Positions 40,923 to 60,800 of a stretch of 64,000 bases of DNA are shown piece by piece. Made by a program: the position numbers and the translations under genes. The stretch lies in the NCBI GenBank assembly GCA_029243025.1, contig JAQWSU010000033.1:124001-188000 (forward strand). The letters run 5' to 3'. The notes under the pieces are model-generated. The model did no database searches. It was not told the origin of the DNA and saw only the letters and a list, made by a program, of their open reading frames with translations. How positions within the stretch are numbered: the first letter of the stretch is position 1; the number at the start of each line of letters is the position of its first letter. The stretch is from Pirellulaceae bacterium. Lineage in GTDB: Bacteria > Planctomycetota > Planctomycetia > Pirellulales > Pirellulaceae.

Positions 40923-43900
40923 ATGATTAAACCGGCGTTGAGCCCGCAATCTTTCGAGTTTCGACTGCGTCAAGGATCGTTTACACCGGTGCCCGTCTGT
41001 TATCTCTTGGTCCTGCTGTTTTTGGCAACGTGGGGTTGCAGCCCAAGCCCACCCAAGCAACCGACTTCCCACCCGGCCTCCGAAGTGCCCCCGGCCTCAG
41101 GGCGAGAAAACGCGTCGAAAGAGTCCAGCATCATCACGCTGGGCTCAACTACGGCCGTCCCTCTCGACCCGCCCAATCCAATCTCCGACTTGAAAAATAA
41201 GCAGGACCCCAAACAAGATAACTGGCCCAGCGAGTCGATAAGCGAAGCTGCCAGTCAGCAACTCTACCGACTACGAGAGGCAATGCTCAATTCGGAACGC
41301 TTGCGGACACAATCGTCCAGTATTATCGCTGATACGGTTACCGGCGAACCTTTACTGCCGTTAAATTTGCCAATCGCATTTCAAACTGATCGGGTGGTGG
41401 TTCGTCGCCTGAAAAAATCATCTCCGCCACAGCTTTCCGACAGATCAGAGATTGTCGACTCCCTCAAGGCATTAAGCCGCTCTTTGGGCGTTGGCCCGCA
41501 CTTAGAAATCGCTTTCAAGCTTTTTGATATCGAAATCGAAGCCGACGGCTTTAGTACGCTAATTCGTTACGAGGCCAGCAACCGAACGACCGCACAAGCG
41601 ACCGAACAAACAGCCGTTTGGAAATGTCGATGGAATTTACCCGCAGGTCAGATTTCACCGCCGCAAATCACCCGCTTCCATGTGGAAAGTTTTGAGCAGG
41701 TGGAATTGGTCATGCCGACCGGTCGACTTTTCGGAGACTGTACAGCCTCTGCATTGCAAGCGAATGATTCATATCAACAACAGATCTTACCCAGCATCAC
41801 CGACTGGTTACCCCAGATACCGCGAGAGTTCATGAGTCAATTTGGGCATCATGGCCTGGCAATCGGCGACGTCAACGGAGACCAACTCGATGATCTCTAT
41901 GTTTGTGATGCGGGGGGCCTACCGAACCGCCTCTATATTCAACAAGCGGATGGTACCGCAATCGATGCGTCGGCAAGTTCTGCAGTTAACTTCCTTGAAG
42001 ATTCTGTGGGAGCCCTTCTAATCGATTTAGATAACGATGGAGATCAAGACCTCGTCGTCGGCACCGACCCTGTACTACAGATTGCCGAAAATGATGGCAC
42101 AGGTCATTTCGTCCTGCATCGCAGCATCAGCACTGATACCGATTCGTTTTCCCTCTGCGCTGCCGATTATGATTCAGACGGAGACCTTGATATCTACGTT
42201 TGTGGTTACGACGTGCGACGTAAAGACCCGACTCATCGTGGTCTCCCCTTTCCACTTCCGTATCATGACGCAAACAACGGCGCTCCCAATCGCTTACTTC
42301 GCAACGACGGTGATTTCCATTTCACGGATGTGACCCAAATCGCGGGTCTCGACCAAAACAACAGTCGCTTTAGCATGGCCGCCTCCTGGGAAGATGTCGA
42401 CAACGATGGCGATCAGGACCTTTATGTGGCGAACGACTTCGGTCGAAACAATCTGTACATGAACGATGAGGGTCAATTTCATGATTCAGCCAAATCGGCG
42501 AATGTGGAGGACCACGCGTCGGGCATGTCCGTTTCCTGGGCCGATTATGATCGTGATGGCCGAATGGATCTCTATGTTGGCAACATGTTTTCCTCGGCTG
42601 GAAGCCGAATAACTCACCAAGACCGTTTCGCTGCAGGCGTTTCGCCCGGCACTGTGAAGCAACTGCAAAGGATGGCACGTGGTAACACATTATTTCGCAA
42701 TGAAAGCGACAACGCTCCTCATTTCCAAGATGTAAGTCAAACGCTTGGGGTCACCATGGGCCGTTGGGCGTGGGGTTCTCGTTTTGTCGACACTCGCAAT
42801 ACAGGTTGGCCCGATTTGATTGTCGCCAACGGCTACCTGACGAATGACAATCACGATGATTTATGAAGCTTCGTCTGGCGACAAGTTGTGTCGCGATCAC
42901 CACGGACCACGGCAGACAACCTGGCAAGCTATCGCGATTCATGGCGGGCAACCATGAAACTCCTGCGCGAGGGTCGATCTTTCAGCGGTCGTGAGCGTAA
43001 TTGCGCCTTCATGAATTGCGATGGGCAAGCATTTGCGAACATTTCGGCAGTAAGCGGTCTCAACTACGATGATGACGGACGCGCACTTGCAGTCAGCGAC
43101 TGGGATCAGGATGGTGACCTGGACCTCTGGTTTCTCAACCGCACGGGGCCTCGCCTGCGCTTAATGATTAACCAAAGCGATCAGAGGTCCAGTCAGTCGA
43201 ACAAATTTGTCGCCTTTCAACTCCAAGGTACTGAATCGAATCGCGATGGGATTGGAGCTCGCGTTACCGTCCACTTGCCAGACCCCACGAACGGGGAAAC
43301 GCCCTCCACGACGCTACCGATTCACCAAACATTGTCTGCAGGAGACGCTTTTCTGTCGCAATCCAGTAAGTGGTTACATTTTGGCCTGGGAGAGGCCGAT
43401 TCCATTGAGAGCGTACTCGTACGCTGGCCCTCAGGAAGGCTGGAGACCTTCAAGGGCTGCCAACTCGGAAATCGCTATCGATTAATCGAAGGTGCTGGCA
43501 AACCGATCCTCGTTGATCAGTCGTCAAGGAATATCGTTCTTAAACCCTCGAAGCAGCAAACAGCGTCCCCTGCAAAACTGCAACGCGTGGCATTCGCCAC
43601 TCCTGTTCCATTACCCATCGTCAAATACAGAGCTGATGCCGGCACGGAAACTCCACTCACCGCAACCAACGATCGCCCGCTAGTCGTTTCCCTCTGGGCC
43701 AGCTGGTGTTTGCCCTGCCTTGCTGAACTAGAACAATTGACCGACCAGGCCGACTCCCTGAAACAGGCAGGAATCGACGTCCTCGCACTCTCTTTGAATG
43801 GCCTCGACAAGAACCATGCGGACTCAGCCGAAGACGCGATTCACTTCTTAGACAAAATTAGCTTTCCTTGGCCCCGGGGAATTGCTCAGCAGGAGTCGCT

Positions 43901-44993
43901 CGAAAAAATACTGCTCCTCGAAGAGTTGCTTTTCAACCGCCGACCCCAGTTATCAGTTCCAACAAGTCTCCTAATTACAAAGGACGGTGAATTAGCGGCC
44001 ATTTACCGCGGCCCAATTTCGCCGAGCGCAATCATCCAAGATGTGCGTCAGTTGAACTCGCCTGCCAAGGATCCGCGTGATTTTTCCGCACCTCTGTCCG
44101 GTAGCTGGAACACACCTCCTCGCCAGCTAATGGTCAGCGCATTAGCAAGGGAGTTCCGCACACGTGGCTACCAAGCCGACTACGCCCGGTATCTGTCCCT
44201 GGACCGAGAGCGGCTGAAACGAGCCCGCGACCTAGCGAGCAGCCCGGAACAAAAGGCGCAAATTGACTCACAGTATGCGCAGGCCAACTTCACCCTTGGC
44301 GTCGCGCTCGCTGCGTCGGGCCAAACCGAAGAAGCAATCGATCATTTCCGCCGCGCCATTGCCGCACAAGCTGACCACACGGATGCACTGATTAACCTGG
44401 GAGTCCTGTTGGCGAAAGCCGGCGATTCGCAAGCGGCCCTCCAATCGTTTCAGCAAGCCGTCAAATTCAATCCTGATTCGCTACCAGCCCGAATCAATCT
44501 GGCAACCGCCCTCAGCTCTCGCAAGTCGTTTCAGGAGTCGATTGAACATTACCGCTATGTTTTAAGGAAACAACCAAGCCAGGAGCTTCACCAACGTTTT
44601 GGACGCGTTCTTTTAGAAACAGGTACCTACCAAGAAGCCGCCAAACAGTTCGAGAGTGCGCTGCAATTGGAAAAGCGAGACTTTGCGTCCACCCTCGCAC
44701 TCACTTGGCTATTGGCAACCTGTAACGAAGATTCAGTACGCGACGGAGAACGGGCATTAGAGCTGGCAAAGCGGCTGAATTCTGGACAAACCACCAATGA
44801 TCCGCTCGTGCTCGACATCCTGGCTGCTGCCTTTGCCGAAGCTGGCGACTTCACCCAGGCTCGCGAGACACAACTCGAGGCGATTAAGCGGCTTGGCTCG
44901 CAGAACGTAAAAGCACTGACTGCCTTTGAGCAACGGTTGCGTCATTATGAAGATGGCCGTCCATTCCGTGACAGCGACGCCAAATATCCATAG
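40923..44993 (+). CDS. FG-GAP/ASPIC-UnbV-thioredoxin-TPR protein with in-frame TGA (candidate selenoprotein, copy A)
   Basis: If the TGA at 42864-42866 is read through, this is one protein of 1356 residues. Order: lipoprotein-type or signal N-terminus (LLVLLFLATWGCS), an unrecognised domain, an FG-GAP/VCBS propeller with repeated D-x-D-x-D-G-D calcium loops (about 305-640), then DDL-[UGA648]-SFVWRQVVS, ERNCAFMN with Cys694, an ASPIC/UnbV domain (about 760-840), a thioredoxin/TlpA-like domain with WASWCLPC (Cys929, Cys932), and TPR repeats (about 1110-1330). The frame is the same before and after the TGA. The paralogue at 57839-61309 has TGA at the same place, and both have a hairpin 17 bases after it. 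A separate downstream gene would have to start without a plausible start inside the homologous region. Alternative: a TGA that ends translation. Confidence 0.8.
42878..42894 (+). promoter_or_regulatory. Candidate bacterial SECIS hairpin, copy A
   Basis: Arm GCGACA, loop AGTTG, arm TGTCGC: a perfect 6-bp stem with a 5-base loop. The loop starts 17 bases after the TGA at 42864-42866, the same distance that I count for E. coli fdhF, and G is the loop's second base. It encodes part of W-R-Q-V-V-S-R. The paralogue has the same stem with a different loop (GGTCG), so the pairing is kept although codons could vary. Confidence 0.7.
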
Positions 44994-45001
44994 GGTTTAA
45001 A

Positions 45002-46699
45002 TCATTTACGATCGATTTGGACGGATGTTTGCCCCTGTTCGATCGTTATCCGCTGATTCGTCGCCACATCTTTGACGACATCCACACCTCCCCCCGGCCA
45101 GTGAACTCGGATCTCATCAATTTTCGCGTTAGTCCCAACACCAAAATGCAGGTCGGAACCGAAGTGGCTTTGGTATCCCCGTCCACGGCGAACTTCGTCC
45201 ACTTGCTTGTTATCGCCAGTCATGACTTCGACTCGGGCACCTACGCCTTCTCGATTTGCACGACGGCCAGCCAATCTGACGTCCAGCCAATGATGTTTTA
45301 CGGGGCTGTCATTCCTGAGCAACGTGGGTCCTTCGCGAGAGTTAAGAATAACAACATCGATATCCCCGTCATTATCCAGGTCGTCAAAACCGGCGCCACG
45401 ACTGCTGAGTTTCACCCGCATTCCCGATCCGGCGGAATCCGTCACATTTCGGAACTTTCCTTGCCCGGAATTTTCAAACAAAATATTCCGCGCCCGATAG
45501 GAGGTGCGATCATCGAATCGCTCAACGTTCGGATACAAGTGCCCACAGGCAACAAAAATATCTCGATCTCCGTCGTTATCAAAATCCACAAATCCATTGC
45601 CCCAGGTAACTTCTGCGTTCGTTCCTAAACCCGCGCCGCTCAGATTGGTCGTGTCTTCGAGAAAGACGCCGTTTACATTTTTGTAGAGCGTCGCCAGTTC
45701 ATTTTGATAGGAGGTCACATGCAAATCAAAATGCCCATCGTTGTCAAAATCACTGCAATCAACACCCATTGTCCCCTGGATGGTTCCGGTTCGATCGTAC
45801 GAAAAACCGCTTAGCAAACCGATCTCCTTGAATCGACCTTTTCCATTATTCTGAAAAACGAAATTCGCCCCCACATCGTTGCCGACAAAGAGGTCACTAT
45901 CGCCATCTAAATCGAAGTCAGTCGCCACCATGCCCATCCCATAACCCAACTTACTCGCGATCCCGCTATCCTCACTGAAATCCACAAAAGTGCCGTCACC
46001 GTTGTTCCGATAAAGCGAATCAGCTTCAGGATCAAAGTCGAGTGGGCTCGCGTAAACCGAAAAGCCTTGCCGGGTACGATCGATCTGTTGGTCGTAGGAA
46101 AACTTTAAATAGTTCGCCACATAGAGATCGAGGTCACCATCCTGGTCGATATCGATAAAGCAGACGCCCGCCCCAACTCGGTCTCCATCATCGACGCCAG
46201 CCGCCTTGGCAACCTCAGTAAACGTTCCATCTCCTTCGTTTCGATAGAGTCGATTAGGGCCGAAGTTACTCACGTAAAGATCAGGATCGCCATCCTGATC
46301 AAAATCACCGACGGTCACACCGAGCCCATGCTGGTCGTCACCGACACCTGCTTGTTGAGTGACGTCGGTAAATTTCCAATTTCCATCATTGCGATAGAGC
46401 GCATTACGCACTGGCCGACTCGGTCGATCTCGAGCGGGGGCACCATTCAGGAAATAGATATCAACATCCCCGTCGCCGTCATAATCAAACAACGCTAAGC
46501 CAGCGCTGACGTACTCAACAATCAAATGGCGACCATCACTACCGTCAGAATGTTGAAATGTAATTCCCGTTTCGGATGTTACATCGGTAAGTCGAATTCG
46601 TGATTCATCAGCGTCCAACATTCCACAGCCGAGCAGCAGGAAAACAAAGCCTAGGTTGCGACGAATCATCGTTGATAAATTCGATCCGGTATGAATCAC
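45002..46699 (-). CDS. CRTAC1-type FG-GAP/ASPIC-UnbV exported protein
   Basis: This 565-residue secreted protein begins with a hydrophobic leader (NLGFVFLLLGCGML; a lipobox-like LLGC is possible). The CRTAC1-type start (GITFQHSDGSDGRHLIVEYVSAG) is followed by FG-GAP repeats with D-x-D-x-D-G-D calcium loops (DYDGDGDVDIYFLNGAP) and a C-terminal ASPIC/UnbV domain (NREGVGARVEV, GYQSHFGSDLHFGVG, RVHWPGG). No catalytic residues are known for such proteins. Its ATG at 46699 overlaps the stop of the TPR gene as ATGA, so translation is probably coupled; an internal Met at 46669 also begins the leader. It is convergent with copy A of the candidate selenoprotein gene. It lacks an in-frame TGA. Confidence 0.88.
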   Translation of the reverse strand: MIHTGSNLSTMIRRNLGFVFLLLGCGMLDADESRIRLTDVTSETGITFQHSDGSDGRHLIVEYVSAGLALFDYDGDGDVDIYFLNGAPARDRPSRPVRNALYRNDGNWKFTDVTQQAGVGDDQHGLGVTVGDFDQDGDPDLYVSNFGPNRLYRNEGDGTFTEVAKAAGVDDGDRVGAGVCFIDIDQDGDLDLYVANYLKFSYDQQIDRTRQGFSVYASPLDFDPEADSLYRNNGDGTFVDFSEDSGIASKLGYGMGMVATDFDLDGDSDLFVGNDVGANFVFQNNGKGRFKEIGLLSGFSYDRTGTIQGTMGVDCSDFDNDGHFDLHVTSYQNELATLYKNVNGVFLEDTTNLSGAGLGTNAEVTWGNGFVDFDNDGDRDIFVACGHLYPNVERFDDRTSYRARNILFENSGQGKFRNVTDSAGSGMRVKLSSRGAGFDDLDNDGDIDVVILNSREGPTLLRNDSPVKHHWLDVRLAGRRANREGVGARVEVMTGDNKQVDEVRRGRGYQSHFGSDLHFGVGTNAKIDEIRVHWPGGGVDVVKDVATNQRITIEQGQTSVQIDRK

Positions 46700-48057
46700 T
46701 TTTGCGACCTGCTTTTTTCTATCGAGTTTAACAACTGCCGATAGGCTGGATCATCGGGCTTCAACGCAATGGCTTTTTTAACCGAAGCGACACCCTGCGG
46801 CCCTTTTCCGTTCTTAACTTGAGCCCACCCCAACAGAAAATAGCCTTCCGCAGCCGGTTGAATTTGAAGCGATCGGGCCGCTAGTTTTTCAGCCAGTCGA
46901 TTCTCGCGATTGGCGGCCAGATAAAATCTTGCCAAATGCCGGTACGGTTCCGCTTGCTTGGGTGCAATTTCCACCATTTTCTTGAAAGCCTTTTCTGCGT
47001 TCGCCAACTCACCTTTTCGGCCGTACAGGAAGGCAATTTGCCGCCAATGACTAGGGTTTTTTGGTTCCAGTTTCACCAAAGCTTCGTACTGCTCTAAAGC
47101 AGCCGACGCATTGCGTTGCTTGAGGTAGTAAGCCGCCAACGCTTGGCGAGCATTCGCGTTCGCCGGATCGGCATCGACCGCTTCTTCCCACAAACGCCGC
47201 GCCCCCGCTGGATCGGCGCGTCGATATAATTCGGCCGCTTGGACACAAGTATTCGCAAGGTGACTTCGCATCTGCTGCAAGTCATCAAACTCGGATCGCA
47301 CTACCTGATCTGCAGAAATGGCCTCTTGCTCCAATTGCTCAAAGGCCTTCGAATATTTCACCAGCTCCTCACCTTGACCGAGCCGAGCACAACATTTGAT
47401 TAGACCATAGTAAGCGTGTGAATGACTTCGCTGCAGCCGGATGACGTTCCGATAACTCTGTTTTGCCTTGGGAAACTCTTGCAACTGAAAATAGGATTCA
47501 CCGAGTAGATAGTTGGCCTCTACGGAATTGGGCGATAATTTGATCTGGTGTCTTAGCGCCCGTTTCGCGTCTTCCGCTCTTCCTAAATTGAGTAGCGCTT
47601 CGCCCACATGGCGGAAAGCATCTTTCAAATTCGGATCGATTTCCAGCGCCTGCTTCCACAACTCGATCGCCTCTTTGTACTCCTCAGCCTTTAGAGCTTG
47701 CCTTGCAAGCTGATCAACAATGTCCGCTCGGCCTGGCTCCAGCTCCCTACACCTTTGCCAGCAGGCAATCATCTCGTCTAGTCTCCCATGGCTACTGTGC
47801 ACGTATCCCATTAATCGCAGGGCCTGAAAATTGTCCGGGAAGTCAGTTACAACTTTTGTCCCGATTTCGTATTGTCTTTTTTTTAGCCCTTCCGCCTGCG
47901 CACGAACGGTTGGCTGCGGATCTTCTGTAGCCTGAGCACGAAGATGCTTTGCGCAATTCACCGTCTGGATCGGCAGCAGCAGCAGGAACATGGTGGCCCT
48001 GGGTACGACTCTTTGCAGAATGAGTCTCAAGAGAGCGTCGCTTCGAATCGCATTCAT
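46696..48057 (-). CDS. Exported TPR-repeat protein
   Basis: This 453-residue protein has a hydrophobic N-terminal leader (MFLLLLPIQTVNCA) and about ten 34-residue TPR units (for example EEYKEAIELWKQALEIDPNLKDAFRHVGEALLNLG-type spacing and AEKAFKKMVEIAPKQAEPYRHLARFYL). TPRs are protein-protein contact scaffolds. The gene is sandwiched between two CRTAC1-type genes with ATGA overlaps on both sides, so all three are one translationally coupled operon and the TPR protein is likely to bind or organise the two propeller proteins (inference). Confidence 0.88.
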   Translation of the reverse strand: MNAIRSDALLRLILQRVVPRATMFLLLLPIQTVNCAKHLRAQATEDPQPTVRAQAEGLKKRQYEIGTKVVTDFPDNFQALRLMGYVHSSHGRLDEMIACWQRCRELEPGRADIVDQLARQALKAEEYKEAIELWKQALEIDPNLKDAFRHVGEALLNLGRAEDAKRALRHQIKLSPNSVEANYLLGESYFQLQEFPKAKQSYRNVIRLQRSHSHAYYGLIKCCARLGQGEELVKYSKAFEQLEQEAISADQVVRSEFDDLQQMRSHLANTCVQAAELYRRADPAGARRLWEEAVDADPANANARQALAAYYLKQRNASAALEQYEALVKLEPKNPSHWRQIAFLYGRKGELANAEKAFKKMVEIAPKQAEPYRHLARFYLAANRENRLAEKLAARSLQIQPAAEGYFLLGWAQVKNGKGPQGVASVKKAIALKPDDPAYRQLLNSIEKSRSQK

Positions 48058-49745
48058 CGGTCACTCCCCTTCTCCGCAGCCCCGGCTGCCGACTCGCGAA
48101 CCGTGATCACTTGACCGGGAGCTAAGTCCCGCAGTACCGTCGTCCCTCCACCAAGCCAGTTCACCTCAATTTGATCTACCCGATCTCGTTTTCCAATACC
48201 AAAATGCAGTCGCGAACCATGATGGCCCTGGTAGCCTCGTCCGCTGTGTAACTCGTCGTACAAGACCAAATCATCCGCCGTCACCTTCACCCGAGCGCCT
48301 ACGCCGTCACGATTTGTCACTTTGCCCTCAAGCTTCACATCGATCCAACGGTTGTTGCCCTGACTATCATTTCGCAACAGCGTCGGCGTACCTCGCAGAT
48401 TTAACACCACTGCGTCGATATCTCCATCATTGTCCAGATCATCGAAGGCAGCGCCCCGACTACTTCCCCGGACGCGCATCCCCTGTCCACCAAGACGACT
48501 AATGTTAGCGTATCGCCCCTCACCTTGATTTTCGAATAGCAAATTTGGCGTCTCGTAGGTCGCAGATTGGTCGAATTCTTCGACCGTGTCGTAAAGATGA
48601 CCGCAGGCGATGTACAGATCACGATCCCCGTCATTGTCGAAATCAACAAATCCATTTCCCCAGGTTACTGGAGCGCGAGTTCCAATTCCCGCACCGGAAC
48701 GACTGGTAACATCCTCGAGCAGTTTGCCACCCACATTCCGATACAATGTAGCCATTTCTCCCTGAAACGATGTGACATGAAAATCAAGAAATCCATCATT
48801 GTCGAAGTCGGCACAATCAACTCCCATGCTGGCGTGCGTCCTCCCCGAGGCGTCGTAGGCAAAGCCACTCAGTAAACCAACCTCCTTAAATTTACCCCGT
48901 CCATCATTTTGAAAAAGAAAATTCATTTGCCCATCGTTCGCGACAAAAATGTCACTGTCACCATCGAAATCATAATCGGCTGAAACAACTCCCATACCTG
49001 GCGCAGCATGCGCTCCAATCCCAGATTCGTCGCTGATGTCAGTAAAGGTTCCATCCCCATTATTACGAAAGAGCGTATTGGTCTCCGCCGGATAATCTGC
49101 CGGGCTGCCATAAATCGAATAGCCCTTTTTTGTGCGTGGTATGTGACGGTCATGGGCAAACCGGATGTAGTTGGCCGCAAACAAATCAAGATCCCCGTCC
49201 CCCTCGATGTCCAAAAAGACGACGCCCGCCCCAACGCGATTTCCATTCCCGACGTTCGCGACTTCTGTCACATCGGTAAATTTGCCGTTCCCATCATTTC
49301 GATACAGAATATTGGGGCCAAAATTATTGATGTAAAGGTCCGGATCACCATCGTTGTCATAGTCGCCAACGCTGACGCCCAACCCGTGGCCTGGATCACC
49401 GACGCCAGCCATATCAGTCACATCGGTAAACCGCCATTGACCATCATTTCGATAGAGCCGATTCGTTGGACGTTTTGTCGTCGACGATCCTGGCTGCGGA
49501 GCCCCGTTCAAAAAATAGATATCAATATCGCCATCAAGGTCATAGTCAAATAAAGCCACCCCGGCACTCATCGTTTCCACGATAAAATAGCGACCGCCAC
49601 TACCGTCGGAATGTTGAAATGTAATGCCTGACTCCGACGTCACATCCGTCATTTCTATCGATTGCGCAAAGGCTTGACTCACCACGACGAGAGCAAAAAT
49701 TACCCCGAAAATCGGTTGACGTAGCCACCACAGAGATTGACGCAT
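48054..49745 (-). CDS. CRTAC1-type FG-GAP/ASPIC-UnbV exported protein
   Basis: This 563-residue protein is a close paralogue of the one at 45002-46699: GITFQHSDGSGGRYFIVETMSAG, FG-GAP repeats ending FYLNGAP-type and GMGVVSADYDFDGDSD, and the C-terminal ASPIC/UnbV domain (NRDGVGARVKV, GYQGHHGSRLHFGIG). The Met at 49745 begins a signal peptide (LRQPIFGVIFALVVVSQAFA) and has GAGG 6 bases upstream, so I prefer it to a Met further up. Its stop overlaps the TPR gene start as ATGA. It is the first gene of the three-gene operon. No in-frame TGA occurs, and there is no thioredoxin domain, unlike the two candidate selenoproteins. Confidence 0.88.
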   Translation of the reverse strand: MRQSLWWLRQPIFGVIFALVVVSQAFAQSIEMTDVTSESGITFQHSDGSGGRYFIVETMSAGVALFDYDLDGDIDIYFLNGAPQPGSSTTKRPTNRLYRNDGQWRFTDVTDMAGVGDPGHGLGVSVGDYDNDGDPDLYINNFGPNILYRNDGNGKFTDVTEVANVGNGNRVGAGVVFLDIEGDGDLDLFAANYIRFAHDRHIPRTKKGYSIYGSPADYPAETNTLFRNNGDGTFTDISDESGIGAHAAPGMGVVSADYDFDGDSDIFVANDGQMNFLFQNDGRGKFKEVGLLSGFAYDASGRTHASMGVDCADFDNDGFLDFHVTSFQGEMATLYRNVGGKLLEDVTSRSGAGIGTRAPVTWGNGFVDFDNDGDRDLYIACGHLYDTVEEFDQSATYETPNLLFENQGEGRYANISRLGGQGMRVRGSSRGAAFDDLDNDGDIDAVVLNLRGTPTLLRNDSQGNNRWIDVKLEGKVTNRDGVGARVKVTADDLVLYDELHSGRGYQGHHGSRLHFGIGKRDRVDQIEVNWLGGGTTVLRDLAPGQVITVRESAAGAAEKGSDR

Positions 49746-49880
49746 CGCAATCCTCGAAAAGAAATACTGACTACCTTCAGGATATTCCGCGTCTGGGGTG
49801 GCGTCAAAACCGGAAGACAAATTTCCGGGCGCTGATCAACACGACAGTTACTCCAATCGAAATTTCCGGTCAGATGTCGA

Positions 49881-52800
49881 TCAGATTGTGTCAAATTCGT
49901 CATCTGCGAGAGACAAGCTGTCAAGTTTTATCCGTAAGTCTTGCGAACCATTCGACCATTCATCAAAGAGACGGTCTCTTGCTTCTAACATCAAATCGGA
50001 CGGACGTGCACCTGCATAGCGGTCAAGATCCTCGTCTGTATGATCCCGGGATGTTAACCGGTGGCGCCCTGTCGTTGGCTCGTGCAATGACAGCGGTCCC
50101 GGTAGGATCGCGGGCTGCGCCGCGGATACAAAAGATCCCCCTTGCATGGCGACGACCAAATCACTCGTGGTGAATTCGCGATCGCAATTCCAATCACCGG
50201 TCGCCCAGGTCGAATTCCCGGCCACTTGATCCTCATATTGCCCCGCTTGAAAGACCATCACCAAATCAGAGGAATCGAAAACCCCATCAAGATTCGCATC
50301 ACCAAACCCAGTCTTGAGGACATCCTCCACGAGAAATGTCAGATCGGCCAAATTGACGAGACCGTCCCGATTCAAATCGCTAGACAGATCATCACTTGCG
50401 GCGGTACAAAGAAAATCGATATCCGCAAGATCCACCTTTCCGTCTTGCGTCACGTCACCGACCAGCTCACCTCTAGCGCCTGGGCTTCCGCCCATCGGTG
50501 CACTGGCTTTCCATACTTCCGCTTTACTGAGATCGGCAGCGGCGTTCGACACCGGATCGACCAATTCCAAACTGGCCCCCGCCCCATCAGCCTCTTCAGG
50601 CCACGGGGCGTCGTCTGAATAAACAAAATCGATCAAGGCAGTCCCTTGCTGATCCTCAATTCGCAATCGCTCTCCACTGTTACGGAGATTGCCGGCAAAC
50701 TCGCCGACAAACGAAACGCCAGGATAACGACTCGCAAAGGCTTCCGCATTACTGACCACAACGACTCGTTGACCGGGTTGCAGCGCAGGCTGCTTAGCGC
50801 CCAGATCGTAGGTTTCGGCGGGCCCATCCGTAAAACGGACACCGGTCAGATCGAGTGTGATCGAGTCCGATGTATTCAAGAACTCTACAAACTCAAAATC
50901 ATCCTGCTGCCAATCTGGGTTCACCGCTAACTCATCGGCCGTTGGTTCGGCCGGATGGTACATGACTTCCACCAATCGCAAATGATCAAACAGCGGCGAT
51001 CGCTCCGCATTGCTGACCACGACGACTTGATCCGCCCCAACCTTTTCACCTTGGTAATTGAACGCTTCGAGTTCGATTTGATTCTCACCAGGCAACAGCG
51101 GGAAAGTGATCTGCCATCGTTCATCATCAAGCCAGGCGACCTCCGCAATTTCCTCTGAACCCTTTAAACGAATGGCGTGGACATCGATCCAGCCGGTTCC
51201 TTCCAGCGCAACCACAAGGTCATTCACCTGCAGTGGTCCGTTCGGATCTGCAGTAATGGCAAACGGAATCCTGGGAGCATCGCGATCGAGTCGAGAAAGT
51301 ACAAATTCTGAACGGTCCTTGACATAATCCACGAAGAAATCACCGACATTTTTATGTTGCGTCATCTCTTCGTAATGCTGAGCCCAAGCCGTAAGGTATT
51401 CGGTGTTGTAGGTCGTTTGGACTAAGTCGAGCAGATGCTTATAGAACAGCCGTTTGTTATGAGGCAGCTTGATGACTCTCGCCAGATTGCTACCACCACG
51501 ACCGAGGAGACTTCCGTTCGTGGAGTAATAGAACCCATGATCCACATCCCATGGAAGCGGAACCACCTTACCGTCCGGGCGGACAAACAGTTCAAGGTTA
51601 TGGGCAAGTCCCATGTTGTAAGTATCGGCCGTACCGACGAGCGATTGCAACGCGAAGGTGCGCATCCAGGCATCCATATCCATAATTTCCTGCGTCGCTT
51701 CATCGAGCGATTCGCCTCTCTTCGAAAAGGCTTTTCCGAGCTCCATAATTCCATCGTAGTCATCACGCGCCCGATTGTTTTTCAGTATGAAATTATGCCG
51801 GTAAGCCTCTTTATCATCACCGAGATCTGAAATATCGGTACCCATGACCGCATTCGGCGCCTGCTTAACGGACTCGGGATTACCGTCCACCGTACTGTTC
51901 GTGTGATAGATCAACTCATACTTATAGAGTGATCCATCCCCACCGTCCTCAAAAAACGTATCGACAAAATCGCTGGAATAACGTGCCATTTTCAGGAGGG
52001 CGAGGCCCGTGTTTCCGCGACGTGGCGCATCCACGTACACGACATCGTCATACATTCCAGCGATTCCACCTGCATGATTGATTACTTGATAGATCAATAA
52101 CTCGTGGGCACTGGCTCCAGGTTGCCCACGGACCCCACCACCGTTCCCATTCGAAAAGACGGCTCCCCGATCTAAGGCAATGGTTTGATGTACATCCCGA
52201 AATTTCTTTTGCGGATCGAATTGAACATTGAAGCCCGCCAATTGTCCACGACGTCCGTATCCGCTGGCACGCAATCTTACCCCCACATCATAAAATACTT
52301 CCTCGTCGTTATAGATAACCGTCGCCCCCAAGCGGCCGTTACTCATCACGTTATCCGCCCGATGGAGTGTCGAGACATCATTTCGATTCATCAGAATGCG
52401 TAGACCATGACCGGTACTATTATCAAGGGGATCATCAACCTTATACAAAGCGCGGGACGCTGCGCCTTCCGCCGGAAATGGTGTCTGAACACCACGCTGA
52501 TCCGTGCCGGTGACATAAAACTGCACCGTTGCTCTCTTCGCTTGCCCGGGGATCGTCGCCTGAAAACGGCCATCCGCGTTGATTTCCATGGAAACCGATT
52601 GAAACTCTCCACTCCTCACAGCGTAATGCAGGGTCATGTCACCGATCCCATCCGCATCCACTGCATGAATCGAGACGACCACCGGTTCATCGGCTTGCGG
52701 AACGACCGGTTGATGCCTCAAGTCAGAATAGAGTGGCCCTGCGTTGTTTACCCAAGTGCTATTCTTTTCGCCTGGCGTACCCTGCCGACTATTCGTCTCC

Positions 52801-55800
52801 AGAACGGTCGTCGCGCCTCCCCGGGCAAAATAGAGTCTCGAATTCAGTTGAGGCGAACCGTTCACCCAGAGCGCGTCAAAGGACAGCTCATACTCTTTTG
52901 ACGATGAGACCCGTACCCCATTAGCAAACGTCGATTCGCCATGATTACTCATATGCTCGGTGGGACCGGCGGCAACAATTTGCATCACCTGATTCGATTG
53001 ATCTTTCGGATCGACGATCACCTGGGTTCGATTGTGATTTCCGACCCATCGCCAATGCGCTGGCGCTTCCCCAATCGAATCCTGTTCAAAATCGCCATTC
53101 TGCATTAATTGAACGGCATCCTTCGCCGGATCCTCCGTGAGCTGGATGTTGTCGAGGAGAACCTCTCCTTCATCCAGCAGACCGAGTACCAATTCATGAA
53201 AGGCCACGGGACTCGACAACCCCTCCGGATTCGCTCCCGTCATTCGGATGGAATAGGATTTCCATTGGCTATCCGGGTTTGGCACACTCGCCGACCATGC
53301 CTCGGCAATCGAGTTATCGGCGAAGGGGCTTTCGAGTTCTAAACTTGCACCCCCCCCATCCGCCGCACTCGGCCAACGCCCCCCGTCATAATAGTGGACC
53401 TGATCCAAACGGTTGTTCAGCGAATCCCGCAAAACAATCCGCTCATCGCCATTGTTCAACCGCCCTTCAAAGGGTCCGATGATGTTAGCGGCGGGATATT
53501 GTTCGGCGAGTCGCACGGGAGCTTTCGCCACCACCAAATAATTGTCGGCCGGAATGATTGTCCCTTCAGGAAATTCAAATTCCACCGCATCATCTAGCGA
53601 CCAGCCGGACAGATCCACTGGCTGCAAACTTCGGTTGTACAATTCGACCCATTCTTCATTGTTTTCTTGGAATGGAGTTGCTGGCACTCCCGGTTCAACG
53701 ATGGATGCTGCGGTTAATTCCAAGCCAAAAATAGCGTCCGAACTCGTTTGAGCCCGTTGCCGCAATTGCACAGAAAGACGATTTTCCCCCACCGACAATA
53801 ATTCTCTCGGAATTGTGACAACGGGGCTCGCCTTGGCGTTGTTGACGGCTCCCGAGGCTTTCGTTCCTGGCTCGATCGGTCCCTTATCCAGATTGAACCG
53901 CAAGAATTCCTCACCATTCAGATAGAATACCGCACCATCATCAATCACATGCCTGATCTGAAAGCGATCCGATTGATCGAACATTTCCGCGGTGACTTCG
54001 AACTCTTTTTCGAAGTAGTATGCGAGAAAATCATCATCGTGCAATTCCGTTCCCAGTCCCGGATCAATCACCTGCCCGGTTTCAAATCCCAACAACCCTG
54101 GCCCCTGCTTCCATGATCCCCCAACAGGGTGCGCATCAACGAACCAGTTTTCTGGCAACACGTCACCCGTATCGTAGTAACGCCATTCACTATCAAATTC
54201 GATGATAGGATCCAACTCAAAGGTGGGCGGGATGCCAGTGCGAGAAAATTCTGGAATCTGATGATACATGACCTCATTTATCACGATCGAATCGGCAAGC
54301 TGAATCTGATTTTTCGCGTTAAATGATGAGGTGACTTCGTTCAGGAAGGCCCCTTCTCCATCGGGCATACGGCCGCGGGCGGACTCGCCAATATGGACTG
54401 CGTCCAGTACCAGACCGGCACCCGCATGGACTAAAGAAACCAAATCGCCTTTCGGCAGCGATGTGGGGATAGAGATGACCTGAATTCCCTGTGGAGGAAG
54501 CAACTGATCCGGCAGCGGGATTGGCTGCTCACCCACGGTCAGCAACAATTCGTTCAACGCCACCGGAGAATCGCCAAGATGAAACAGTTCGATCAGGCCG
54601 GTCTCAGCATCACTGCCACTCAGCTCATTGATCCGGACGGGCCACGAGTGTGCATCCGGATTCACCGGATATTCATCCGCGACAAGCTCCAAGCCAAAAG
54701 CCATATCCGGATCTGCGGTCAGCGCTTGATGCACCTCAACTGCCAGCAGATTCTTCCCCTTTTGCAACGGTGTCGACGAAATCACTTGAGGCTCCGACCA
54801 ACTCGGATCACCCACTGATGCTTCGGCCAGACTGGAAAAGTCGACAACACCCGCTGCAAGATTATGACGCAACACTTCAACCCCGTTCAGATAAACGATC
54901 GCCCCATCGTCGAGAAAATGGCTGATGGCAAGATCAGTTTCTGCAGGATTACCCGAGAAATCGAATTCACGTCGAAAATAATGCGTGTTGGTATCGCCAT
55001 TAACCTCCGTAGCGAGCGGTGACACTTCATGTCGCAACATGACGTTATCCACAAACAGGGTCCCCGTGCCGTCTTGATCGGTTTGTTGAATCGCGAGTTG
55101 AACGGATTCCGCTGACGCAGTGAACGCTTGAGTTATTAAATGATATGCCCCGGATTGTCCGACCGGCTCAATAACCGTCTCGAGTACCACGGGCCGTCCA
55201 TTTAAAGCAACGACGACCTTCGGTCGCGATCCGCTTAAGGACGCGTTGACTTGAAGCCGAATCTCGTAACGATCGCCAGGGATTAGCCCATCTACGGATT
55301 GACTGAGGGTGCCTGGCCCCGTCAAATAGACAGCTGCCTGTCCATCGGGAATGGTTCCATTGTCGTGCAAAGGGCTCAGCATGGTGGACACGCCGAGCGT
55401 CCCGAAACCGGTATGAGTCCAACCCGCGATTTGATTCCCATTCAACGGGAGATCAATCGCTCCAGAAGCCTCAAAGCTGGAGTTGAAAAGCAGGACCTGC
55501 TCTTCGTCACGTGGAATAATCGAAATCGCATCGAGCAACAAAGTGTTATCACCTGTTGAGGCAAGATTTCGAATCAGCAATTGCCCGCTTTCAGCCGTAG
55601 GCGTGAACCGCACACGCGCGACCTGAAATTCCGACACTCCCCCCACAGGTTCGACAGGCGTCGGAGCCATTAACAGAGAACCCGCGTAACTCACCGACAA
55701 GATCGGATTCGCACCACAACAGGCCCGGGCGTTGTAATGAAACTCCAGCCAATATTCTTGATCTAAGGAGAATCCTTCCAGCACTTGGGAGAGCGATCCC

Positions 55801-56726
55801 CGCTTCTGGATAAAGCCTACCTGCTTCTGATCGGGAATCTGTCCGTTGTCCGCAAAGGGTCGACTTTGAGTCGTTGTTGGATTGATGCCAACTCGCCCCA
55901 AATGAGTCCATCCATCAATCTCACCATAGCCAACATCTCCGTGTACATTGGCTTCAAAACTCGGATTCTGAATGACGATCGACTGCGCTTCGCCGTCGAT
56001 GCTGTTTCCTCCGGGTCGGTTGATGCTAGGGAATTCCCCGGCGTAAAGAGGCGATTCGCCTGTTGTCCACTCTTCATCTCCGTATTCCAGTGAGACCCAG
56101 TTTGCGGGGAGCGACTGGCCAGCATCGTTAACTCGCCAGATCGCATCACCGGCGGCGATGACCGTAGAAGTTGGCGTGGGATCGAATTCGGGAAAGTTCT
56201 CAGCACCCGGGGTCCCACCGATAAAGCCACTGCTCGTCCAATTCACGGCGGCGCCACTCCCCGCCTGTGCCTCGATCTTAGCGAGACTGGCTCCCGAACC
56301 ATCAGCTGCCGCCGGCCAAACTCCACCGTCGTCGAAATCGATCGTGTCCATGACACGATTACTGATATTGCGGAGCACTAGTCGCTCGCCTGAATTGCTC
56401 AGCTGCCCTTCGTACGGCCCCAGCAGGAGTGAATCCTGATGGACTTCTCCCATTCGGCTTGGGTCCTTCGCGATCACGACATAGCCGCCCCCGGGAATGG
56501 TCGTCCGGGCCGGTAACTGAAAATCGATCCCCTCAACCTTCCACCCAGAAACATCCATATTGACTGCCATCTGGTTGTGCAGTTCGATCCATTCCGTTTG
56601 ACTCTCAGTGTTAGCTGGATGGTATAACAACTCGTTGAATACGACAGTACTGTCCAATACTCGCCGGTCTTCCAATTGCTCTATTCTGCCCTTTCGCTGG
56701 TTCAATTTACGTCGCCTACGCCCCAT
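49881..56726 (-). CDS. Giant surface protein with lamin-tail, CotH kinase-like and dockerin-like domains
   Basis: This 2281-residue protein starts MGRRRRKLNQRKG and then LEDRRVLD, the N-terminal motif found on giant planctomycete secreted proteins (LEPR/LEDR type). Lamin-tail-like domains occur around residues 25-165 (FNELLYHPANTESQTEWIEL), 1100-1230 (EEWVELYNRS) and 1950-2090 (FEFVEFLNTS). Two NPSFEA domains (residues about 255-580) resemble the CCG domain of the PEP-CTERM proteins; the first has NARACCG. A CotH kinase-like region (about 1450-1850) carries GVRLRASGYGRRG and PWDVDHGFYY. A dockerin-like module (about 2110-2190) precedes an unusual acidic tail without PEP-CTERM. The Met at 56726 has GGGAG 8 bases upstream. 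The role is unknown, probably cell-surface or adhesion. Confidence 0.85.
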   Translation of the reverse strand: MGRRRRKLNQRKGRIEQLEDRRVLDSTVVFNELLYHPANTESQTEWIELHNQMAVNMDVSGWKVEGIDFQLPARTTIPGGGYVVIAKDPSRMGEVHQDSLLLGPYEGQLSNSGERLVLRNISNRVMDTIDFDDGGVWPAAADGSGASLAKIEAQAGSGAAVNWTSSGFIGGTPGAENFPEFDPTPTSTVIAAGDAIWRVNDAGQSLPANWVSLEYGDEEWTTGESPLYAGEFPSINRPGGNSIDGEAQSIVIQNPSFEANVHGDVGYGEIDGWTHLGRVGINPTTTQSRPFADNGQIPDQKQVGFIQKRGSLSQVLEGFSLDQEYWLEFHYNARACCGANPILSVSYAGSLLMAPTPVEPVGGVSEFQVARVRFTPTAESGQLLIRNLASTGDNTLLLDAISIIPRDEEQVLLFNSSFEASGAIDLPLNGNQIAGWTHTGFGTLGVSTMLSPLHDNGTIPDGQAAVYLTGPGTLSQSVDGLIPGDRYEIRLQVNASLSGSRPKVVVALNGRPVVLETVIEPVGQSGAYHLITQAFTASAESVQLAIQQTDQDGTGTLFVDNVMLRHEVSPLATEVNGDTNTHYFRREFDFSGNPAETDLAISHFLDDGAIVYLNGVEVLRHNLAAGVVDFSSLAEASVGDPSWSEPQVISSTPLQKGKNLLAVEVHQALTADPDMAFGLELVADEYPVNPDAHSWPVRINELSGSDAETGLIELFHLGDSPVALNELLLTVGEQPIPLPDQLLPPQGIQVISIPTSLPKGDLVSLVHAGAGLVLDAVHIGESARGRMPDGEGAFLNEVTSSFNAKNQIQLADSIVINEVMYHQIPEFSRTGIPPTFELDPIIEFDSEWRYYDTGDVLPENWFVDAHPVGGSWKQGPGLLGFETGQVIDPGLGTELHDDDFLAYYFEKEFEVTAEMFDQSDRFQIRHVIDDGAVFYLNGEEFLRFNLDKGPIEPGTKASGAVNNAKASPVVTIPRELLSVGENRLSVQLRQRAQTSSDAIFGLELTAASIVEPGVPATPFQENNEEWVELYNRSLQPVDLSGWSLDDAVEFEFPEGTIIPADNYLVVAKAPVRLAEQYPAANIIGPFEGRLNNGDERIVLRDSLNNRLDQVHYYDGGRWPSAADGGGASLELESPFADNSIAEAWSASVPNPDSQWKSYSIRMTGANPEGLSSPVAFHELVLGLLDEGEVLLDNIQLTEDPAKDAVQLMQNGDFEQDSIGEAPAHWRWVGNHNRTQVIVDPKDQSNQVMQIVAAGPTEHMSNHGESTFANGVRVSSSKEYELSFDALWVNGSPQLNSRLYFARGGATTVLETNSRQGTPGEKNSTWVNNAGPLYSDLRHQPVVPQADEPVVVSIHAVDADGIGDMTLHYAVRSGEFQSVSMEINADGRFQATIPGQAKRATVQFYVTGTDQRGVQTPFPAEGAASRALYKVDDPLDNSTGHGLRILMNRNDVSTLHRADNVMSNGRLGATVIYNDEEVFYDVGVRLRASGYGRRGQLAGFNVQFDPQKKFRDVHQTIALDRGAVFSNGNGGGVRGQPGASAHELLIYQVINHAGGIAGMYDDVVYVDAPRRGNTGLALLKMARYSSDFVDTFFEDGGDGSLYKYELIYHTNSTVDGNPESVKQAPNAVMGTDISDLGDDKEAYRHNFILKNNRARDDYDGIMELGKAFSKRGESLDEATQEIMDMDAWMRTFALQSLVGTADTYNMGLAHNLELFVRPDGKVVPLPWDVDHGFYYSTNGSLLGRGGSNLARVIKLPHNKRLFYKHLLDLVQTTYNTEYLTAWAQHYEEMTQHKNVGDFFVDYVKDRSEFVLSRLDRDAPRIPFAITADPNGPLQVNDLVVALEGTGWIDVHAIRLKGSEEIAEVAWLDDERWQITFPLLPGENQIELEAFNYQGEKVGADQVVVVSNAERSPLFDHLRLVEVMYHPAEPTADELAVNPDWQQDDFEFVEFLNTSDSITLDLTGVRFTDGPAETYDLGAKQPALQPGQRVVVVSNAEAFASRYPGVSFVGEFAGNLRNSGERLRIEDQQGTALIDFVYSDDAPWPEEADGAGASLELVDPVSNAAADLSKAEVWKASAPMGGSPGARGELVGDVTQDGKVDLADIDFLCTAASDDLSSDLNRDGLVNLADLTFLVEDVLKTGFGDANLDGVFDSSDLVMVFQAGQYEDQVAGNSTWATGDWNCDREFTTSDLVVAMQGGSFVSAAQPAILPGPLSLHEPTTGRHRLTSRDHTDEDLDRYAGARPSDLMLEARDRLFDEWSNGSQDLRIKLDSLSLADDEFDTI

Positions 56727-56836
56727 CGAAACTACTCCCAAAACAACCTTGTCAAGACTTAGTCAGCTAGTGGACATGTATACGCCAACACCCAACAAAT
56801 CACCAGGAAATTCGCTCTACACGAAAGACAAAATAG

Positions 56837-57838: not shown

Positions 57839-60800
57839 TCATTGACTTTGAATTGTCTGCAGGGCCTGCTTCCATTTCGCAGCCGACTTTCGGTCCCTTT
57901 GCTTGACGGCGAGCACGTAGGCCCGTCGAACGGTTTTGACAGCATCTGCCTTTCGCCCTGCCGCCAGCTGAGCAGTCACGAGCGTGTCAAGCACGGGCAA
58001 TGATTGATAACTCGTCTGTTCTGCTGCGGCTAACGCCAGCTCTACGGCTTCACTGTGGCTCTGCTTCGATCCACCGGGCTTGGTTGCCAATTGCCAGGCC
58101 AGATTGTTCTTCACCGCAAGGTTATCCGGCTCACGTGACAAAGCGGCACGGTAAAGGGGTACCACAAATTCGGTGCGTTTCCCTTCCTGAGACAACCGAC
58201 TCGCTAATTGACTGGTCAAAGTGACGAAGCCTGGCTGCGTTGCCAACACAGCTTGATTCGCAGTTACATAGTGGGCTGCATCGACGAGTTCCCCCTGCTT
58301 CAGCATCAGTCCAGCAAGCCGAATCGGTGCATTGAGTGTTCGTGCACGAAACCATCGACCGGGAAACGGCAGCGCGGCCTCATACCGATCTTTTCCGTCC
58401 AAGCCTAATTGGCGCAGATGGCGTTCGAGCAAATTAAAATCAATAGCTCCCCGATAGATCGCGGCCAAACGGCCTTCCGCATCGATGAGAAAACTAGTCG
58501 GGATCACAAGTTGGCGTTTTTGTGCAAACAGAGTTTCATCCAAAAACTGCAATCGGTTTACCATCGTTTCCGCAGCGACACCCAAGATCACAGAATCGCT
58601 TAATGGTTCCACTGCCTGCTTGAGACTCTTCACGCGTCGTGAGGACTCCTCCACCGAAATGTCGGGACCTTCCACAGCCAGCGCAAGCACGTTGAGCGGT
58701 AGCCGCGTCCGAGTCTTAAACTCGGTCAATTCGACGAGTTCGTTTACGCAGGGTGCACACCAAGTCGCCCAAAAATTGACGAGTAACGGCGTCTGGCTAT
58801 GCTTAAGATTCAAACGCTTACCATCGAGCGAGAAGTAGGACAAACGTGGCACGGGCAGACGACTGGCAAGCAAGATCTGGGCCACTTCTGTCGGTTCAGG
58901 AAGGTCCAGCGGGTGCACTTCATTCGCCTGCATCTTGAACTGATTCCTTACCAGAGGCCGCGCAACACCCGTCCCTTGTTGACAGAGATACTTCCCATTC
59001 GGTTCGCACCCAAGAAAGTATTCAACCCGTCCTCCCGGCCAATGGACAGCAACGCTTTCAATCTTTTCGGCGGCTCCCAAGCCCAGCACGAGTCGTTTTG
59101 ACGATTGGGAAAGGAACCCCTCACCCGCTCGAAGAACCTTATCAATCTGATTGGGTGTGCTTTGTGCGGGGAGTTGTACAACGACACGTGCGCCGATCGC
59201 ATCTCGGTTACAATCCTGCCCCACCAGAGTCAGAGATAAGGAACGGTTACCCGTAACCTGATCGTTACTTAGATAGCGGATGCGAGGTGCGGTACGATTC
59301 ATCGCAAAAACGTCCAGGTCACCGTCGTCATCCCAATCTGTCATCGCCAAACCACGTCCATCATCTGAAAAATCAAATCCGGTTAGCTTTGAGACCGTGG
59401 CAAATTGGCGTCCGTTGTTGGGACCAGGAACATTCAAGAAGGCGCAATTTCGTTCGTTACCGCTTAATGATCCCCCGCTATTGATCAACTGATCCAGCTT
59501 TTTTAACTCGCGTCGATAGACGGCATTTGCCCCACCCGTTTCCTGCCCGAGACTGCCGTCTGTGGGAGACTGCGACACGACCTGTCGCCAAAACAGGCTT
59601 CACAAATCTCCCGGATCCTCCCCTGTGATGTAACCGTTGGTGACTAACAGATCTTCCCAGCCGTCGTTATTGAGGTCCATGAAGTTGGAACTCCAGCTCC
59701 AACGTCCCATCGCGACACCAGCGTCCGTGGCAATTTCCTCAAAGCGTCCATTCCCCTGATTTCGAAACAGGCTGTTGCCCGCTGCCAACCGCTGAAATCG
59801 CATACGTTGCGTCGAATTTGCCTCGGGCCGAAAGCGACTTTGACGCGTGACTCGGTTCCCCGCGGACGAATACATATTTCCAACGTAGATGTCGTCCTTT
59901 CCATCCCGATCAAAGTCTGCGACCGAGGCAGACATTCCAAACGCACCGTGTACTAATCCGGCCGCGTCGCTTCGCTCCTCAAAGCGCCCCCCAACATTGA
60001 GATAGAGATTATCTGGCCCAAAATCATTAGCCACATAAAGATCCTCTCGACCATCTTTATCCGTATCGACCCAAATCGCTGCATAGCTAAAACGATGGTT
60101 GTCGCTCTCCAGGCCCACTGCGCGGGTAACATCCTCGAACTGCCACTCTCCCAGATTTCGCAGCAATCGATTGCGACCACCATTCTTGGCATCAAAATAG
60201 GGGATTGGCACCGGTAAAGATTGAACATCGGCACCCGATGGAAAATAGGCACATGCAAATAAATCTAACCGGCCATCTTGATCATAATCCGCTGCAGCGA
60301 GACTGTAGGCATCGGGAACCTCAGCCCACGATTTTTTCAGGACGCAAGTGCTGTTGTTTTCATTTTCAAAAATGAGCAACGCCGCAACGGTGGAAAGTAC
60401 GAGGTCCTGATCTCCGTCGTTATCAAGATCAAGCCACAAACTGCTATGCGTGTTATCGAGTAGATCAACTCCGAAGCGTGCAGAAGCATCCTCGAGGATT
60501 CCCTGGGAGTTTTGCAAAAAGAGGCGATTTGGCAGGCCTCCAGGCTGACATACGTAAAGATCATCTCGTCCGTCGCCGTTCACATCCGCGACGGACAGAC
60601 CGTTTTGCCCCACATTCAAAATGCCGTGCATCGACTCAATCCGACGAAGCCAATAGGGTTGTCCGAGTGCCAACTGTTGTCGGAACACGGGCGTTTTCGC
60701 GAAGAGCTTTTGGGTCTGGTCATTCAGCAACGATTTCCCACTGGCTATCTTCAGCTCAACGAGCACAAGTTCCGAAATCGAAATGCGTTCCACCGACAAC

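Follow-up and report, generated by a model that had tools for sequence, protein, structure and literature searches.

A candidate selenoprotein family with selenocysteine in a CRTAC1-type beta-propeller, encoded in many copies by a Pirellulaceae bacterium

The DNA analysed here is a stretch of 64,000 nucleotides from a Pirellulaceae bacterium (assembly GCA_029243025.1, contig JAQWSU010000033.1), called the window below, and the subject is one of its genes, copy A, which is interrupted by an in-frame TGA. That the UGA at 42864-42866 is decoded as selenocysteine (Sec) by tRNA-Sec and SelB is strongly supported computationally. We consider it fairly probable that copy A belongs to a large family of extracytoplasmic selenoenzymes that has not been catalogued before, with the Sec in a CRTAC1-type beta-propeller and not in a thioredoxin fold, and with a fused TlpA-like domain that recycles it. 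The family, with 24 genes in one genome, would extend over the Planctomycetota and the Verrucomicrobiota, and the Sec losses in its main clade would not be to Cys and would mostly go with a loss of the CxxC motif.

The preliminary description of this DNA had noticed two open reading frames (ORFs) of one frame that are split by TGA 42864-42866, and this was confirmed. The upstream ORF (40923-42866) codes for 647 amino acids and ends at the TGA, and the downstream ORF (42888-44993) continues in the identical frame. When the TGA was taken as a residue, a protein of 1,356 amino acids was read in which the single TGA is residue 648, followed by SFVWRQVVS. The GTG at 42888, the 'start' of the downstream ORF, is a Val codon within the hairpin of copy A. 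The parts of the gene are as follows.

40923-44993, plus strand: copy A, the whole read-through gene, from ATG 40923 to the stop at 44991-44993; 1,356 residues
42864-42866, plus strand: in-frame TGA of copy A, proposed selenocysteine codon, residue 648
42878-42894, plus strand: hairpin of the bacterial selenocysteine insertion sequence (SECIS) type, with a 6-bp stem GCGACA/TGTCGC and the loop AGTTG at 42884-42888
42984-42986, plus strand: Ser688 codon, the residue that co-occurs with Sec
43002-43004, plus strand: Cys694 codon in the ERNC motif; in most of the close relatives this residue may act as the resolving Cys
41850-43157, plus strand: FG-GAP propeller of the integrin-alpha/CRTAC1 type, into which the Sec helix is inserted, limits approximate
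43248-43475, plus strand: ASPIC/UnbV domain, residues 776-851
43599-44057, plus strand: TlpA/ResA-like thioredoxin domain, about residues 893-1045, with the CxxC codons 43707-43709 and 43716-43718
44250-44672, plus strand: TPR region, about residues 1110-1250

The window contains a second member of the family, copy B, with the same layout. The two copies were aligned across the TGA with 37% identity over 1,099 columns (tblastn), and the TGA of copy B falls in the same column. The segment after the TGA had been said to be kept in the second copy, and copy B has indeed SLFWRQVVS at this place.

57839-61309, minus strand: copy B, second family member; its terminal stop at 57839-57841 is likewise TGA
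59600-59602, minus strand: in-frame TGA of copy B, proposed selenocysteine, residue 570, then SLFWRQVVS
59572-59588, minus strand: SECIS-type hairpin of copy B, GCGACA-GGTCG-TGTCGC, -7.9 kcal/mol

The genome of the bacterium (8.35 Mb in 60 contigs) was searched with copy A and contained about two dozen long relatives with an internal TGA. Reading codon by codon, TGA was found at the column in 24 copies of this genome (copy A of the window is L017 and was counted once), whilst the distant paralogues L041 and L040 had the Cys codons TGC and TGT. Within the same taxonomic family, 15 of 80 genomes were matched at E <= 1e-20, giving 100 matches with the query itself included. Exactly one internal TGA was present in 96 of these, and in two of the remaining four the match starts at the end of a contig, just past the column. 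A chance in-frame TGA is excluded, because the 24 copies of the genome share one column and 96 of the 100 family matches have one TGA. A congener had 13 matches and another genome of the family, G450, had 23, of which 21 contained a TGA. In 12 genomes from other parts of the phylum, between 1 and 5 matches per genome were obtained at E <= 1e-10.

One copy of the genome of the bacterium, L038 (G000:C11:79500-84200), keeps the conserved TGA and then loses the family sequence, with a stop 189 codons later. The rest of its protein was matched downstream in separate stretches, as in a decaying copy or an assembly error.

In the search of the phylum at most 8 candidates were scored per genome, and its copy numbers are lower bounds. 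A match to a 200-residue segment was obtained at E <= 0.001 in 182 of 392 genomes. The column codon was read in 99 aligned rows and was TGA in 75, GAG in 6, CAG, GCC and CGC in 3 each, AAT in 2, and GAC, GCG, AGC, TGC and TGT in one each, with a gap in 2. These rows were picked from the listed matches, 20 of them for having no stop, and copy A is counted three times (window, L017, L047), so that the proportions are not frequencies. Among GTDB records, mostly metagenome-assembled, the TGA was present in several Verrucomicrobiota, in one record each of the Acidobacteriota (L133) and the Gemmatimonadota (L134), and in Planctomycetota, whereas L130, L132 and L187 had sense codons for Ser, Ala and Glu. 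Further in-frame TGA codons, which were expected in homologues of a selenoprotein, were thus observed in same-family matches and in records of several phyla.

Cys at the column, the other expected sign, was found in one distant clade of the DYCT..WRHDI type with 4 rows (L040, L041, L141 and L177), two of them from the genome of the bacterium and the others from Verrucomicrobiales. No Cys was seen in the main clade among the best 80 of 153 confirmed loci, and the fetched loci had TGA, Ser, Ala or Glu; with this coverage Cys orthologues in the main clade are not excluded. Homologues with neither Cys nor UGA, which had been named as a sign against Sec, do exist among some paralogues.

Residues D646, W652 and E691 were present in 90 of 90 Sec rows, and the base after the UGA was A in 87 of 88 distinct TGA rows, a context bias that goes beyond the hairpin. 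For the hairpin, tree and open-frame counts, L017 and L047 (the same gene as copy A) and the gap rows L042 and L043 were dropped, and L137 and L199 were left out of the sense-codon residue frequencies. A distant planctomycete row on a long branch, L143, has its TGA at the column (position 4219) in another context, PDG-U-RCVWL.

All four genes for the synthesis and insertion of Sec, selA, selB, selC and selD, for which a search had been proposed, are present in the genome. SelB was matched with 365 bits and the adjoining selA with 570 bits, and ARAGORN found a tRNA-Sec with the anticodon TCA; a second Rfam hit over the gathering score was a tRNA-Ser. The selD gene (L119, G000:C60:108592-109518; 352 bits) has one in-frame TGA of its own. 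SelD is listed as a selenoprotein in the part of a 2026 review covered here (PMC13188914), and the selenophosphate synthetase of this genome looks like a selenoprotein too.

In the phylum, selB scored over the cut-off in 235 of 392 genomes. Of 64 genomes for which TGA copies are among the matches listed, 59 have selB, versus 176 of the 328 others (Fisher test, 6e-10). The five genomes with TGA copies and no selB have a completeness of 55-89%, and tRNA-Sec was matched in all of them with 67-74 bits. Within the same family (f1), selB was found in 13 of 15 genomes with copies versus 33 of 65 without. The link from copies to selB is, by these counts, a one-way link as expected, because many genomes have selB without any copy.

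The codons for WRQVVS directly after the UGA form a hairpin, GCGACA-AGTTG-TGTCGC in copy A and GCGACA-GGTCG-TGTCGC in copy B. In both, the loop lies 17 nt from the UGA and has a G within its first two positions. The bacterial SECIS (bSECIS) model, as given in the part of the review covered (PMC13188914), asks for a loop 16-37 nt after the UGA, a G in the first two loop positions and an energy <= -7.5. The geometry was found in 73 of 73 distinct TGA rows with the loop at 16-20 nt, and 55 of them reached the energy of -7.5. The mean hairpin energy of the 73 rows was -8.9 kcal/mol versus -2.5 kcal/mol for synonymous shuffles, and copy B, with -7.9 kcal/mol, had a shuffle fraction of 0.05. Among 22 rows without TGA, which include 2 Cys rows, 7 reached -7.5, with scattered hairpin positions. 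An Rfam search of window positions 42700-43000 gave no SECIS match.

Covariation was tested in 88 distinct TGA rows, with shuffles that leave the relatedness of the rows in place. Two of the six stem pairs beat all 5,000 shuffles (77 of 88 rows paired versus a mean of 56.2, and 83 of 88 versus 72.9), and these two have the most two-sided variation of the six. The Ser at +9 was encoded by TCG in 59 of 62 rows, versus a background of 27%, and the Arg at +5 by CGC in 14 of 87, versus a background of 46%. Codon choice follows the hairpin stem. The earlier assignment of residue 648 as selenocysteine is thus supported at the level of sequence by the conserved TGA, the Cys clade, the sel genes and the covarying hairpin.

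Pfam identified FG-GAP repeats, UnbV_ASPIC, a thioredoxin domain of the AhpC-TSA/Redoxin type and TPRs in copy A, with FG-GAP_3 and UnbV_ASPIC above the cut-off; the ASPIC/UnbV domain, the CxxC thioredoxin-like domain and the TPRs had all been recognised before as lying downstream of the TGA. An AlphaFold2 model of residues 256-1060, computed from a 47-row alignment, had a predicted local distance difference test value (pLDDT) of 91.3 and a predicted template modelling score (pTM) of 0.93. In the model, the Sec is residue 393 at the start of a helix (392-403) between the strands 376-381 and 439-443. The best match to a solved structure was murine CRTAC1 (PDB 9etn; Z 42.1, root-mean-square deviation 2.2, 457 aligned). 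Structure matches to ADAM22, aldos-2-ulose dehydratase and integrins were set aside as sharing the fold only. The C-terminal domain matched TlpA 1jfu (E 4e-18) and ResA (E 1e-13) and also StoA. Its motif is usually of the WxxxCxxC type and is CLPC in copy A. In a simple scan, many N-termini looked like signal sequences, lipoboxes or membrane anchors, and the product is probably an exported protein, a lipoprotein or membrane-anchored. One DsbD_TM protein is encoded in the genome.

Copy A shares its propeller and ASPIC domain with CRTAC1 and with the bacterial FG-GAP/ASPIC-UnbV proteins. An ordinary FG-GAP/ASPIC neighbour at 45002-46699 has no TGA and gave FG-GAP and ASPIC matches only, whereas copy A has the Sec helix in addition. 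In the paralogues L042 and L043 of the same genome a gap stands where the Sec region aligns. The Sec helix is an extra insertion in copy A. With TlpA, ResA and StoA the C-terminal domain has the thioredoxin fold and the CxxC in common; in copy A, however, this domain is a fused module with Cys and the Sec is in another domain.

As redox partners of the Sec, Cys694 and the fused CxxC had been proposed. Where a thioredoxin domain was detectable, 78 of 80 Sec rows had an intact CxxC, versus 2 of 18 sense-codon rows (Fisher test, 2.4e-14), and it is therefore the CxxC that is proposed to recycle the Sec. The sense-codon rows without a thioredoxin domain are L090, L091, L094, L095 and L096 and the outlying L137 and L199; among Sec rows the broken copy L038 likewise has no detectable domain, and apart from five rows with closed 3' ends, named below, the others without a match are cut off at the locus end. 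Residue 688 was Ser in 99% of 90 Sec rows versus 22% of 23 sense-codon rows. Of the 90 Sec rows 61 have Cys694, as does 1 of the 25 sense-codon rows and none of the 4 Cys rows; in the 53 Sec rows with a long sequence its share is 91%. The proposal of the CxxC is therefore supported, and that of Cys694 in part; of the two partners the fused CxxC has the stronger support. We take the sense-codon rows for members in which the redox chemistry was abandoned, and do not count them against Sec, because 16 of the 18 with a thioredoxin domain have lost the CxxC.

A tree was computed from 119 rows after masking of the Sec column. It requires 9 changes between the labels Sec, Cys and other, and the Cys rows form one clade with a support of 100. 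The sense-codon label changes 8 times on the best tree, at least 3 of these changes being forced by well-supported branches. The copies of the genome of the bacterium are scattered among the Verrucomicrobiota and planctomycete copies, and this interleaving does not support the view that a recent local expansion explains the copies entirely. A tandem pair of this genome, L019/L021 (G000:C34:58789-69572), groups member by member with the Verrucomicrobiales tandem pair of L121 (support 80 and 95), and this suggests that a two-gene unit may have been transferred across phyla.

Several observations weigh against a redox-active Sec that is inserted at the hairpin. The isolated hairpin of copy A has -7.1 kcal/mol, just short of -7.5, and a synonymous-shuffle fraction of 0.12. 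A fraction <= 0.05 was obtained in 35 of 73 TGA rows, and 5 of the 22 rows lacking TGA reached it as well. Among the four stem pairs that remain, one side does not vary in two, and the other two are not clearly above the shuffles. The register of the stem is not kept in 13 of 88 rows, several of which form a shifted stem by eye. No selB match was found in G424 (9 matches, 72% complete) and G450 (82% complete), in which tRNA-Sec was not searched. At the column itself, 25 of 119 rows of the tree set have Glu, Gln, Ala, Arg, Asn, Asp, Ser or Gly. Concerning the partners, Cys694 is missing in 29 of 90 Sec rows, two sense-codon rows (L093 and L187) keep the CxxC, and five Sec rows with closed 3' ends (L106, L107, L108, L110 and L143) have no detectable thioredoxin domain. 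The phylogenetic contrasts for the CxxC, run with 76 of 80 Sec rows scored as intact (L028 and L073 were scored as lacking it), mostly had the same direction as the row-by-row association; with 3 contrasts on well-supported branches and 8 on the best tree, the sign test was not significant.

Other readings of the TGA were weighed against the insertion of Sec. That it is a real stop, between two genes, in a pseudogene or by a sequencing error, is suggested by the two mechanical ORFs, the second with its GTG at 42888, and by L038, which looks broken further downstream. We give this very little credence, since the residues from the TGA to the GTG rank among the most conserved of the protein and the downstream half has no stop for 701 codons in copy A and stays open over hundreds of codons in most of the others. 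A single internal TGA in 96 of 100 matches from 15 genomes is not something that errors can give, and a sequencing error or pseudogene was ruled out by it. It is just as improbable that the UGA is read as another amino acid by a suppressor tRNA, by near-cognate read-through or after a change of the code. The residues other than Cys in the 25 sense-codon rows would fit such a reading. Against it stand the covarying SECIS-type hairpin, the co-occurrence with selB and the Cys in the distant clade. The TCA-anticodon tRNA that was found is the tRNA-Sec, with no whole-genome search for further TCA tRNAs. TGA ends 13 of 25 checked ORFs of the window and is therefore not reassigned, which rules out a code change.

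Two further readings accept the Sec and differ in its role. The Sec could work mainly with Cys694, as a selenenylsulfide in the propeller, while the thioredoxin domain only docks a partner. The high share of Cys694 in long Sec rows and its near absence from sense-codon rows speak for this, which we nevertheless regard as unlikely: about a third of the Sec rows and all Cys rows do without Cys694, and of the Sec rows with a thioredoxin domain, 80 in all, 22 lack Cys694 but have the CxxC and 1 lacks the CxxC but has Cys694. More doubtful still is a regulatory or structural role, in which the UGA would terminate at low selenium and release a free propeller part, and the full protein would be made when selenium is available. 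The UGA does lie upstream of the thioredoxin and TPR modules, both of which would be removed by termination, and the sense-codon rows run on past the column without Sec. However, Sec, Ser688 and the CxxC are associated across the rows, a pattern more in keeping with chemistry than with a simple switch, and termination would leave the propeller incomplete, because more propeller strands and the ASPIC domain lie beyond the UGA.

A selenoprotein gene together with a redox mechanism is thus the account that we think reasonably probable as a whole. For this propeller selenoprotein we infer the insertion of Sec, export, catalysis and an electron path as follows. tRNA-Sec and SelB would decode the UGA, guided by the hairpin in the codons directly after it. 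The Sec, at the start of the helix inserted between propeller strands, would be the catalytic nucleophile of an extracytoplasmic oxidoreductase that reduces an oxidised substrate such as a peroxide, a sulfoxide or a disulfide. Cys694, in the proteins that have it, may resolve the selenenyl intermediate, or the CxxC in the fused thioredoxin domain may do so directly; electrons to reduce this CxxC again would come from the membrane through a DsbD-type protein. Different substrates or partners may be served by the many paralogues.

With known bacterial selenoproteins the family has in common the UGA, a bSECIS-type hairpin, the Sec machinery and a distant clade with Cys. Unlike in the usual exchange of Sec and Cys, the Sec losses of the main clade were to Glu, Gln, Ala, Arg, Asn, Asp or Ser and not to Cys in the rows sampled. 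For copy A, the best 25 of 44 matches in NCBIfam 20.0 were all below the cut-off. Among the families, NF041054 (ResA-like, WAxxUGC) stayed far below it with 37.5 of 300 bits, and differs in that copy A has the Sec in the propeller and CLPC as the thioredoxin motif. The propeller-ASPIC part of copy A alone had no match at E <= 0.01, and that of copy B had one, below the cut-off. The review counts 119 families or subfamilies of prokaryotic selenoproteins, and the part of its family table covered here has no FG-GAP, ASPIC/UnbV or CRTAC1 entry (PMC13188914). Among the papers listed in text searches of the open-licence literature, supplements excluded, none is on this family. Planctomycete selenoprotein candidates are listed in a supplement (S9) of a 2016 genome paper, as the part of that paper covered here indicates (PMC4807772), and might include a family member. 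The suggestion that this is a new selenoprotein family is supported within the limits of these libraries, with no match above the cut-off among the best 25 of 44 in NCBIfam and no entry in the covered part of the review table.

Directly beside copy A, at 45002-49820 on the minus strand, two open FG-GAP relatives without TGA flank the gene of a TPR protein. The neighbours are listed here.

45002-46699, minus strand: FG-GAP relative, found by Pfam
48054-49820, minus strand: FG-GAP relative, found by tblastn
49881-56741, minus strand: protein of 2,286 residues with three Lamin Tail Domain matches, between copies A and B

According to the covered part of the review, the richest users of selenoproteins are anaerobes, with records of 57 and 63 selenoprotein genes, and most of the selenoproteins that have been characterised adopt a thioredoxin-like fold (PMC13188914). 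If the account given here is true, some planctomycetes would be among the richer bacterial selenocysteine users known. Selenoprotein catalogues have been built largely around thiol-oxidoreductase folds. Many such proteins may be mis-annotated, because ORF calling splits both genes of the window in two. The apparent failure of Cys to replace the Sec of the main clade would offer a direct test of selenium versus sulfur. To our knowledge, the function of FG-GAP/ASPIC proteins in bacteria is largely unknown, and the family would provide a biochemical handle on this domain pair, which is related to human CRTAC1.

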